64,000 nt of DNA from Streptomyces ferrugineus (GTDB lineage: Bacteria > Actinomycetota > Actinomycetes > Streptomycetales > Streptomycetaceae): contig NZ_CP063373.1 in NCBI RefSeq assembly GCF_015160855.1, forward strand, positions 7,656,001 to 7,720,000, in the 5' to 3' direction. Below, one piece after another: positions 27,849 through 29,325 of this stretch (position 1 is the stretch's first letter; every line of letters starts with the position of its first letter). The position numbers and the translations under genes are program-made. Under the pieces are notes generated by a model that did not search any database, was not told the DNA's origin, and was given only the letters and a program-made list of their open reading frames with translations.

Positions 27849-27884
27849 CGCCGCCCGTCGGCCGCTGCCCCGCCGCGCGGCGCG

Positions 27885-27940
27885 CGCCGTATGCCGCACG
27901 CCGTATGCCGCACGCCGTACGCCGTACGCCGTACGCCGCC
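27885..27940. repeat. Heptad microsatellite CGCCGTA/TGCCGCA
   Basis: Eight consecutive 7-bp units: two CGCCGTA-TGCCGCA pairs, three CGCCGTA, then CGCCGCC. It lies just downstream of the monooxygenase gene, about 100 bp before the promoter of the cysteine leader. Confidence 0.9.
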
Positions 27941-28042
27941 GGATGTGGTGCGTATTTGATCATCGGGTGCTCACGTCCGAAACCGGTTCTCGCCTGGAAT
28001 TGGCACTCACCGTCACTGTGTGGTCCGCGTAGTGACAGTGAG

Positions 28043-28071
28043 TTGACCGCTCCGCACCGGCATGGTGTACT
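28043..28071 (+). promoter_or_regulatory. Promoter of the cysteine leader-dioxygenase operon
   Basis: A -35 TTGACC (28043-28048) and -10 TGTACT (28066-28071) are separated by 17 bp, a good vegetative-sigma match. Transcription should begin about 7 bp later, at or next to G28079, the first base of an in-frame GTG of the leader ORF. The mRNA would then be leaderless. Confidence 0.65.
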
Positions 28072-28078
28072 CCGGATC

Positions 28079-28165
28079 GTGACCGACACCTGTGTGCGCC
28101 TGTGGCGGAGGGTCCATATGGACCTCGTCCGCTATGCGGGCTGCGTGTGTCGCCCGTCCTGCTGA
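28079..28165 (+). CDS. Cysteine-rich leader peptide upstream of cysteine dioxygenase
   Basis: A short ORF of 28 codons from GTG 28079, or 15 codons from ATG 28118, which has GGAGGG 6 nt upstream. The final residues are AGCVCRPSC, with one Cys codon directly before the stop; the longer form has another Cys near its start. The segment HMDLVRYAGC resembles the short actinomycete peptides annotated as putative leader peptides before sulfur-metabolism genes. It ends 84 bp before a cysteine dioxygenase-family gene. The likely role is cis-acting sensing of Cys-tRNA charging, not a functional protein product. A leaderless start is favoured by promoter spacing. Confidence 0.75.
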   Translation: MTDTCVRLWRRVHMDLVRYAGCVCRPSC

Positions 28166-28243
28166 ACTCGCATCCCCCTTCTGCCGCGCGCCTCGCCCTT
28201 CGCCGGTGTTCTCGCGCGCTCTTCGCGAACTCTCTTCAGGACG
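28155..28243 (+). promoter_or_regulatory. Predicted translational switch: leader 3' end pairs with the dioxygenase Shine-Dalgarno site
   Basis: CGTCCTG (28155-28161, the last codons of the leader) is fully complementary to CAGGACG (28237-28243), which contains the ribosome site of the next gene. The adjacent GAA of the leader and TTC before the site could extend the helix across a 2-nt bulge. Ribosome occupancy on the leader would decide whether the site is masked. Confidence 0.5.
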
Positions 28244-28249
28244 GTGCCC

Positions 28250-28798
28250 GTGTCTGTCCCCCCTGCCGCCGTACCCTCGTCCGAGCCGGTCGCCACGCCG
28301 AACTCCGCTCCGACGCAGGCGGACCTCCTCGACTTCGTACGGCGCACGGCCGCCGACACCGAACTCGTCGCCTCGCTCCCGCTCGATCCCGAGGGCCGTA
28401 CCTGGGTACGCCTCGAAGGCCCGGGCGGCAGCGAGGCCTGGCTGATCGGCTGGCCGCCCGGCACGGGCACCGGCTGGCACGACCACGCCGAGTCCGTCGG
28501 GGCCTTCGTGACCGCGGCCGGCGAGCTCAGGGAGCACTCCCTCGCCGTCCGGCTGCCCGCCGACGGCTGGAAGACGCTGGAACTGACGGACGACGTGGAC
28601 CGTTCACGCCGTCTCCCGGCCGGCAAGGGCCGCTGCTTCGGCCGCCACCATGTGCACGAGGTCCTCAACGAGTCGACCGACCTGCATGCGATCTCCGTCC
28701 ACGCCTACTACCCCCCGCTGCCGCAGATCCGCCGCTTCAGCCGCAGCGGACCGATCCTGCGCCTGGAGCAGGTGGAGCGTCCGGAGGACTGGCAGTGA
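28250..28798 (+). CDS. Cysteine dioxygenase family protein
   Basis: A 182-residue cupin. The iron ligands are visible in WHDH (His77 and His79) and in GRHHVHEVLN (around residues 133-136), as in thiol dioxygenases that oxidise cysteine to cysteine sulfinate. GTG 28250 is preferred because AGGA lies 9 nt upstream; GTG 28244 is only 3 nt from it. The first ~20 residues are Pro/Ser-rich. Its stop overlaps the start of a rhodanese gene by 4 bp (GTGA). The cysteine-rich leader upstream supports cysteine as the relevant signal. Another thiol substrate such as 3-mercaptopropionate is possible. Confidence 0.88.
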   Translation: MSVPPAAVPSSEPVATPNSAPTQADLLDFVRRTAADTELVASLPLDPEGRTWVRLEGPGGSEAWLIGWPPGTGTGWHDHAESVGAFVTAAGELREHSLAVRLPADGWKTLELTDDVDRSRRLPAGKGRCFGRHHVHEVLNESTDLHAISVHAYYPPLPQIRRFSRSGPILRLEQVERPEDWQ

Positions 28799-29325
28799 GC
28801 GGGGCGGGGAACGAAGCTGTGGTGCGTGATGTGGACGAACGGCCGGTCGGCATAGACGAGTTGCTGGAGCGGGTGCGCGCGGGCTACGAGCGGATCGCGC
28901 CCCGGGCGGCGTACGAGGCCGCCCGGGGCGGCGAGGCTCTGCTGGTCGACATCCGGTACTCCGCCCTGCGCGAGCGGGACGGCCTGATCCCCGGCGCCCT
29001 CGTCGTCGAGCGCAACGAACTGGAGTGGCGGCTCGATCCACAGGGCAGCCATCGCGCCCCCGAGGCGACGAGCCACGACCTGCGGGTCGTGGTGGTCTGC
29101 AACGAGGGGTACGCATCGAGCCTGGCGGCCGAGTCGCTACGGCGGCTGGGGCTGCACCGGGCCACGGATCTGGTCGGCGGGTTCCAGGCGTGGCGGGCGG
29201 AGGGATTGCCGGTGACGCTCGGGGTGGAGGCGGAAGCCCAGGGACAGAGGCACAGGCACAGGGACGCTCCGAGGGCACGCTCAGAGGTCAGTGAAGTGGG
29301 GCGTACTCAACGATCTGAGATCTGA
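28795..29325 (+). CDS. Rhodanese-like sulfurtransferase
   Basis: A 176-residue protein starting at GTG 28795, translationally coupled to the dioxygenase. The single rhodanese domain shows LLVDIRYSALRERDGLIPGA, and the active-site Cys is in VVVCNEGYASSLAAESL, followed by the typical DLVGGFQAWRAEGLPV. The C-terminal ~35 residues are a charged tail. It probably handles persulfide or sulfite formed when cysteine is degraded. Coupling with cysteine dioxygenase defines a small sulfur-catabolic operon. Confidence 0.88.
   Translation: MSGAGNEAVVRDVDERPVGIDELLERVRAGYERIAPRAAYEAARGGEALLVDIRYSALRERDGLIPGALVVERNELEWRLDPQGSHRAPEATSHDLRVVVVCNEGYASSLAAESLRRLGLHRATDLVGGFQAWRAEGLPVTLGVEAEAQGQRHRHRDAPRARSEVSEVGRTQRSEI

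Follow-up and report, generated by a model that had tools for sequence, protein, structure and literature searches.

Why should a gene for the breakdown of cysteine stand behind a short open reading frame (ORF) rich in cysteine codons? The question is raised by a locus of Streptomyces ferrugineus in a window of 64 kb (the whole stretch of DNA analysed here; contig NZ_CP063373.1, positions 7,656,001 to 7,720,000), which is part of a 9.96-Mb chromosome assembled as a single contig. A 28-codon leader ORF encoding VTDTCVRLWRRVHMDLVRYAGCVCRPSC* precedes a cysteine dioxygenase (CDO) gene, and the stop of this gene is overlapped by a rhodanese-domain gene. An initial annotation of the window had proposed that ribosomes finishing the leader free the CDO start when cysteine is plentiful. 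As described below, the Cys24 codon of the leader was UGU wherever unique leaders were compared, and folding predicted Cys24 to be the first Cys codon at which a ribosome would release the CDO Shine-Dalgarno (SD) sequence from pairing with the leader tail. A translational switch run by the leader peptide is the best explanation of the locus as a whole, and we give it about an even chance of being correct.

Results

Conservation of the leader at CDO loci

We compared 191 CDO upstream sequences, made up of the window, 80 named contigs and 110 of 119 matching genomes; the source genome is counted twice in this set and overlap between its subsets was kept. The best 80 of the 466 CDO relatives in the genome collection were all from Streptomyces. 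A leader was present in all 191 sequences, in 189 by pattern and in two by reading of the ORFs, and the two that the pattern missed were diverged leaders of another genus. Among the 189 leaders, Cys was found at position 24 in 189 (UGU in every one), at position 22 in 186 and at position 28 in 172. The conservation of Cys codons across Streptomyces, on which the initial annotation had made its proposal depend, is thus present. The Cys ahead of Trp (C5 in the window leader) occurred in just 104/187 CDO leaders.

The promoter that the initial annotation had read ahead of the leader GTG recurs in relatives. The −35/−10 pattern fitted 181/186 CDO upstream sequences, with TTGACC in 163 of these 181, a spacer of 17 nt in 144 and 18 nt in 37, and a gap of 7 nt between the −10 element and the start codon in 167. 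The same 7 nt separate the end of TGTACT from the GTG in the window, placing the transcription start at or adjoining the GTG. Judging from this spacing, which is conserved among relatives, the leader transcript is probably leaderless. The start codon was GTG at 130/187 and ATG at 52/187 CDO loci, the remaining five being mis-set by the pattern. A strict sigma-70 consensus scan did not list the leader promoter because it requires an A at the second position of the −10 element, which TGTACT lacks. The internal ATG with its GGAGGG site, also described in the initial annotation, is present, but it was ruled out as a conserved start, the ATG being replaced by CTG, CTC or GTG in 23/89 unique cores (four CTC).

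An invariant UGU codon

Cys24 was encoded by TGT in 89/89 unique CDO leader cores, and Cys22 by TGC in 81 of the 86 with Cys at that position. Other codons were similarly fixed among the unique cores: R10 was CGG in 89/89, R11 was AGG in 78/81 with Arg, H13 was CAT in 70/89 and S27 was TCC in 85/88 with Ser. In 27 ORFs of the window, TGT, AGG and CAT make up 14%, 6% and 16% of the codons for their respective amino acids. The fixed choice of rare codons in the leader cores indicates constraint on the RNA over and above that on the peptide.

The CDO leader belongs to a catalogued family. It matched NCBIfam NF042934 'putative leader peptide' (cis_reg_atten) with 37.1 bits and an E value of 1.6e-9 (cut-off 27), and matched NF042933 Ms5788A with 17.9 bits, under the cut-off of 45. 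The NF042934 members seen here share the motif [HA]-x-D-L-x-R-x-[AS]-x-x-x-C near the C-terminus, which in the CDO leader reads HMDLVRYAGCVC, with G at the ninth position. Nine matches at E 0.001 or better, eight of them above the cut-off, were found in this genome. According to neighbour names read from translations, some of these leaders precede sulfur genes, among them a cysO-cysM-like pair, a sulfite reductase, a sulfurtransferase and a sulfonate-type transporter, and the sulfurtransferase leader was the sole match to NF042933 at E up to 1e-4. In a class-wide sample, 64/79 genomes had matches to NF042934 (E up to 0.001) and 57/79 to NF042933 (E up to 1e-4); 14 control genomes gave none to either at the same thresholds. 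The spacing from [HA]-x-D-L-x-R to the Cys recurred among leaders of differing genes and genomes with different codons.

At motif residue 12, counted from H/A, TGT was used in 93/97 leader tails from 15 genomes, the four exceptions being two TGC, one AGT and one AGC. The 97 tails are those with DNA among 131 family matches; CDO leaders are included and at least one leader was picked twice. For unique non-CDO tails the count was 74/78. The other Cys codons of the 97 tails were 81 TGC vs 19 TGT, and those of the 27 window ORFs were 87 TGC vs 14 TGT. Class-wide, position 12 was TGT in 33/33 unique tails (drawn from the best 40 loci by score, some of them Streptomyces) and the remaining Cys codons were 63 TGC vs 12 TGT. 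In these class-wide tails (L299-L338) the position-12 UGU often has a Cys two codons upstream, usually TGC. Base pairing as an explanation of the UGU was set aside by eye: the neighbouring bases vary between leaders, and a codon effect is therefore the simplest reading.

The existence of the leader is already catalogued under NF042934; the SD switch design and the fixed codon seem to be new. No report of the CDO leader or of the fixed UGU was recognised in the literature searched, whose coverage mostly left out subscription journals.

RNA structures of the leader and spacer

The last leader codons contain CGTCCTG (28155-28161), a perfect complement of CAGGACG (28237-28243) in the ribosome site of the CDO gene. 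This complementarity had been noted in the initial annotation and proved to extend to 8 bp, CCGTCCTG/CAGGACGG (P1). To compare it with chance, we recoded 87 unique cores synonymously in 200 trials, a null in which shared descent is ignored. Of the eight P1 pairs, a fraction of 0.930 was formed in the observed sequences and 0.793 on average after recoding (maximum of 200, 0.825). The paired fractions of HP1 were 0.99 in the outer and 0.99 in the inner part (recoded, 0.72 and 0.80), and those of HP2 were 0.963 in the CCUGC form (recoded, 0.736) and 0.913 in the CCCGU form (recoded, 0.647). For HP1, both HP2 forms and P1 the observed pairing lay above every recoding trial, which suggests that all of them are kept beyond the needs of the peptide. 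Either GCGGG hairpin, with CCUGC or CCCGU as partner, is mutually exclusive with P1, and the recoding null is unable to choose between them because they share bases. Both conserved Cys codons, C22 and C24, fall in the HP2 loop.

Reading of the alignment added a helix P2, in which bases following the leader stop pair with bases ahead of the SD. We also exchanged 3' arms among sequences in 200 shuffles, with clade structure uncorrected. The P2 arms paired better with their own partners than with swapped ones (1/200 shuffles as low), and in distant clades both P2 arms have changed, from UUCGC/GCGAA to UGAUC-CGC/GCG-AUCA. For P1, own arms were stronger in all 200 shuffles by a small margin (−12.78 vs −12.72 kcal/mol), and a control pairing gave 27/200. 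The number of P1 pairs per locus (n=187) was 8 in 143, 7 in 25, 6 in 15 and 5 in 4. Strict covariation of CGTCCTG with CAGGACG, named in the initial annotation as a check, was not found within Streptomyces because the SD hardly varies there: three loci with the SD variant AGGAACGG have the leader arm CCTTCCTG, and four other CCTTCCTG loci keep CAGGACGG. Outside the genus one compensatory change was seen by eye (L369), in which CCCGUCCG/CGGACGGG replaces U-A with G-C and pairing is kept; at L370, the second CDO locus of the same genus, no comparable 8-bp pair was seen by eye. The evidence from covariation is accordingly weak. The SD 8-mer itself is identical in 182/189 loci; since its partner arm in the leader is more variable, this uniformity exceeds what masking alone needs.

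The RNAalifold consensus of 105 non-redundant sequences contained HP1, a hairpin of GCGGG (codons A20-G21) with CCUGC at the leader end, and three long-range pairs between the 5' part of the leader and the SD region. The spacer between leader and CDO gene had a mean C content of 0.46 and a mean G content of 0.24. A consensus scan of 27950-28400 listed no intrinsic terminator upstream of the CDO gene, and a transcription attenuator of the Trp type was dropped on this ground. A known riboswitch or RNA family was rejected, as a search of 27850-28400 against Rfam matched nothing at E values up to 1. The coordinates of the features are collected in Table 1.

Table 1. Features of the CDO leader locus (window coordinates) and of the leader at the second CDO gene
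Feature	Position	Strand	Basis or remark
Leader promoter: TTGACC (28043-28048), 17-nt spacer, TGTACT (28066-28071)	28043..28071	+	sequence reading
Leader ORF, 28 codons, GTG 28079 to TGA 28165, end TGCTGA, probably leaderless	28079..28165	+	NF042934 match, pattern in relatives
HP1 hairpin, codons W9-Y19, outer UGGCGGA/UCCGCUA, inner GGGUCC/GGACCU	28103..28134	+	RNAalifold
Internal GGAGGG (28107-28112) and ATG (28118), inside HP1	28107..28120	+	not kept as start in relatives
HP2: GCGGG (28136-28140) with CCUGC (28158-28162, RNAalifold) or CCCGU (28153-28157, alignment reading)	28136..28162	+	
Cys22 codon TGC	28142..28144	+	last conserved Cys codon where a ribosome stall keeps the SD masked (predicted)
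Cys24 codon, always UGU; candidate for the switch codon	28148..28150	+	first Cys codon opening the SD (predicted)
Anti-SD CCGUCCUG, P1 5' arm, codons P26-S27-C28	28154..28161	+	single-sequence folds
P2 5' arm UCGC (UUCGC in many relatives), just past leader stop	28168..28171	+	arm-swap test
Spacer hairpin region P3 (GCGCG...CGCGC)	28172..28224	+	G+C blocks in alignment, predicted fold of the window
P2 3' arm GCGA (within GCGAA)	28225..28228	+	arm-swap test
CDO SD CAGGACGG, P1 3' arm	28237..28244	+	same 8-mer in most loci (see text)
CDO family gene	28250..28798	+	PF05995 4.4e-49; GTG picked by SD spacing, in-frame GTG also at 28244
Rhodanese-domain gene, overlapping CDO stop	28795..29325	+	PF00581 6.9e-13
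Cys-rich leader ORF of second CDO gene	L238:2033-2131	-	RCSCCCPSC type

Predicted switch point

The RNA downstream of a ribosome set at successive codons was folded, with the leading edge of the ribosome 13 nt from the A-site. In the free RNA the partner of the SD was the leader tail, with a mean probability of 0.89 over 105 CDO sequences folded singly. The mean probability that the SD is unpaired in these sequences was 0.05 without a ribosome and at four tested A-site positions up to C22; it rose to 0.24 with the A-site at C24 and was 0.26 with the A-site at R25, C28 or the stop. Codon-by-codon folds of 36 sequences gave 0.04-0.07 over the codons from 19 ahead of the stop to C22, 0.21 at V23 and 0.26-0.28 from C24 onward. 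For leading edges from +9 to +14 (36 sequences), C22 remained closed (≤0.05) and C24 open (≥0.18). The model thus yields a predicted threshold for ribosome position, closed at C22 and open at C24.

The idea of the initial annotation that the end of the leader masks the CDO ribosome site is therefore supported as a prediction; its backing is the single-sequence folds and the conservation of the pair, not the consensus fold. The further claim that slow translation as such would leave the SD masked is not supported by the same folds, in which the SD is predicted to open when starvation stalls a ribosome at C24 but not when it does so at C22.

The same folding was carried out on 78 paralogous (non-CDO) leaders, with start sites chosen by rule and a tail zone wider than for CDO. 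SD-tail pairing had a mean of 0.10 and mean accessibility showed no step. SD masking as a family-wide device was not borne out by this mean, and as these leaders mostly lack SD-tail pairing, the SD-masking switch would be mainly a CDO feature within the family. In leaders of the HIDLxRVAGALC class (L213, L228 and L264), predicted SD accessibility rises when the ribosome reaches the Cys codon. It is possible that this second class works like the CDO leader.

Neighbouring genes and the second CDO gene

The Pfam matches agree with the cysteine dioxygenase-rhodanese operon of the initial annotation (Table 1). Beyond the rhodanese gene, recX- and recA-like genes, judged from their translations, lie on the opposite strand. 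Repeated GCCGTAYGCC-like units (tatgccgcacgccgta...) were seen by eye at 27860-27945, in the gap that separates the leader promoter from the gene before it.

This genome has a second CDO-like gene (L238), in the neighbourhood of a WhiB-like gene. The ORF ahead of it is also Cys-rich but of another kind, with RCSCCCPSC at its end. A permissive pattern found such a leader at 28/30 loci (L339-L368, 30 of 58 matching genomes). These leaders contained 117 TGT vs 28 TGC codons, and a terminal TGT-TGA was present in 28/28. The second-CDO leader was not among the NF042934 matches up to E 10 in this genome, where 150 of 343 candidates were scored, and no sign of SD masking was seen in the 4/30 loci where a start could be placed. 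Both Streptomyces CDO genes thus sit behind Cys leaders in which UGU is unusually frequent. At CDO relatives of three other actinomycete families (L378-L380), a permissive pattern picked out small Cys-rich upstream ORFs with the tails GRCCRCC, MRCRCCA and SCCRCRPS.

Discussion

The computations established conservation of the peptide and RNA, masking and release of the SD in single-sequence folds, and invariance of the UGU. These results are accommodated by the following scheme. The mRNA would start at the leader GTG. Without a ribosome, or with a ribosome stopped at any point up to Cys22, CCGUCCUG would pair with CAGGACGG to form the base of a longer stem, which would keep CDO off. A ribosome at V23 or Cys24, or beyond, would cover the anti-SD and free the CDO ribosome site; since the anti-SD must be covered by a ribosome, translation of the leader would be needed for CDO. 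Presumably a single tRNA-Cys decodes UGU slowly, by wobble, which would be the reason why Cys24 is always this codon. Scarce Cys-tRNA would hold ribosomes at Cys24, and CDO would rise together with the biosynthetic sulfur genes.

Several findings weigh against this scheme. On the RNA side, P1 is missing from the RNAalifold consensus of the 105 sequences, where GCGGG/CCUGC competes with it, and it has fewer than 8 pairs in 44/187 loci, almost all without a compensating change of the SD. The SD was masked to ≤0.1 in 23% of 350 recoded trials vs 57% of 14 real sequences, so that some masking would be expected from chance alone, and 7/78 paralogous leaders pair the SD with the tail above 0.5. Once the leading edge is set at +15 nt or beyond, the SD also opens at C22 (36 sequences). 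The SD after release is no more than 24-28% unpaired in the model. Cys22 is reached first, and a starvation stall there keeps the SD masked, opposing induction by starvation. On the physiological side, it would be odd to induce a cysteine-degrading enzyme during cysteine shortage.

The published expression data bear on the sign of the response; all of them are mRNA levels. In Table 1 of PMC4991794, SCO5772 of S. coelicolor is 8.0-fold and SCO3035 6.5-fold up 2 h after 0.15 mM H2O2, and ssuABC, cysNDCHI, cysA, cysM and metN rise alongside. SCO5772 is named a putative cysteine dioxygenase in PMC3087709, and we infer from this annotation that it is the counterpart of the CDO gene described here. 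In PMC12763843, two CDO genes and the sulfate-reduction genes of strain KK are up after 96 h on feathers. Other published points count against a shared sign driven by the leader. The H2O2 response is lost in an hbpS-senS-senR mutant (PMC4991794), so that a transcription regulator may explain the SCO5772 rise and the leader is not required; the word 'leader' is absent from the available text of that paper. In strain KK, cysM is unchanged and the sulfate genes are down at 24-48 h while CDO is basal, as given in PMC12763843. In strain SCUT-3, cdo1 is 50.2-fold and cdo2 8.3-fold up on cysteine-rich feather according to PMC7181669, which would fit the sign of the initial annotation if these genes carry the leader. 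Geometry alone gives a mixed picture: the SD would open on a stall at C24 or C28 and stay closed on one at C22. The invariant rare codon is among those predicted to open it. We consider that the CDO response more likely has the same sign as cysteine biosynthesis than the opposite one.

The opposite sign was that of the initial annotation, with cysteine inducing its own breakdown. It could arise if plentiful cysteine lets ribosomes run past C22 and pile up at the end of the leader, which would keep the anti-SD covered, and if shortage stalls them at C5 or C22, with CDO left masked. Such control would suit a catabolic enzyme. It agrees with the masked SD of a stall at C22 or earlier in the folds, with the near-constant Cys at position 22 and with the rise of the SCUT-3 cdo genes on feather medium (PMC7181669). 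Yet stalls at C24 and C28 would open the SD, and the invariant rare codon stands at C24, whereas C22 is nearly always TGC. CDO moreover rises with biosynthetic sulfur genes in one data set (PMC4991794) and with sulfate-reduction genes at one time point of a second (PMC12763843). A polarity opposite to that of biosynthetic attenuators is thus unsupported by the S. coelicolor data, where SCO5772 rises with ssu and cys genes, and we regard it as unlikely.

The recurrent distance between motif and Cys could instead point to an arrest peptide, in which H-x-D-L-x-R, some 6-11 residues before C24, pauses the ribosome at the UGU or the stop according to cysteine or thiol state and so opens the SD. Nascent-chain pausing in response to tryptophan is known from TnaC. 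Counting of Cys codons alone would not demand the spacing that recurs across genes and genomes. In the CDO leader, however, the same residues also form HP1, so that constraint on the peptide and on the RNA are mixed, and motif-based patterns are unable to show how often leaders lack the motif; this explanation is as improbable, in our estimate, as the opposite sign. Slightly less probable still is a leader that senses no cysteine and merely couples translation, or a C-rich, G-poor spacer acting via Rho, with control lying at the promoter (SenR, GlnR or others), which would fit the lack of an intrinsic terminator in the scanned region, the spacer composition, the need for HbpS-SenS-SenR in the H2O2 rise of SCO5772 (PMC4991794) and the entry of SCO5772 in a table of glnR-mutant effects, but leaves unexplained the invariant UGU, the conserved Cys codons and the placement of the family before several sulfur genes.

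Returning to the switch at Cys24, a wider proposal can be put forward tentatively. The sulfur leaders of actinomycetes might share one device, [HA]-x-D-L-x-R with an obligatory UGU at a fixed distance, giving a cysteine-dependent pause, which in CDO would be wired to an SD-masking stem and so answer the same signal as synthesis. It is possible, though we hold it to be doubtful rather than probable. If it were true, the making and breaking of cysteine in Streptomyces would both be read by ribosomes at one codon type, and the joint rise of CDO genes and cysteine synthesis under peroxide may have its explanation there. The fixed UGU also bears on the question of whether leaders respond to the speed of decoding and not just to the amino acid encoded.

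Comparison with known leader systems

Leaders of NF042934 are like the CDO leader in motif and length, but most of the others lack the pairing of tail and SD, and HP1 with P1 was seen in the CDO type. In the translation attenuation of ErmC and cat, a sequestered SD becomes accessible depending on where a ribosome stands on the leader, and the inducer is an antibiotic. The CDO model has this unmasking logic in common with them; its inducing signal would presumably be Cys-tRNA. TnaC resembles the CDO leader in that a leader peptide controls the breakdown gene for an amino acid present in its codons; its mechanism, through Rho and a ligand site for the nascent chain, sets it apart from the switch proposed here. 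The attenuators described for S. lividans in PMC8079986 are short ORFs rich in one amino acid and mostly leaderless. They differ from the CDO leader, for which the scan gave no terminator, and Table 4 of that paper contains no cysteine leader. The metL leader before metNIQ, called methionine-dependent in that table, ends ARCMCRRMCAF and is Cys-rich too.

A further likeness is to the mycobacterial polycysteine attenuators, which are leaderless (Canestrari et al. 2020, as cited in PMC9031893, PMC9094748 and PMC13236596, one of which speaks in its citing passage of translation attenuation), and to the Ms5788A family NF042933, whose cut-off the CDO leader does not reach. There, as in the probably leaderless CDO leader, an upstream ORF with Cys codons precedes sulfur genes. 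The Cys codons are contiguous in the mycobacterial attenuators and spaced as C22-V-C24 in the CDO leader, and the target here is a catabolic enzyme.

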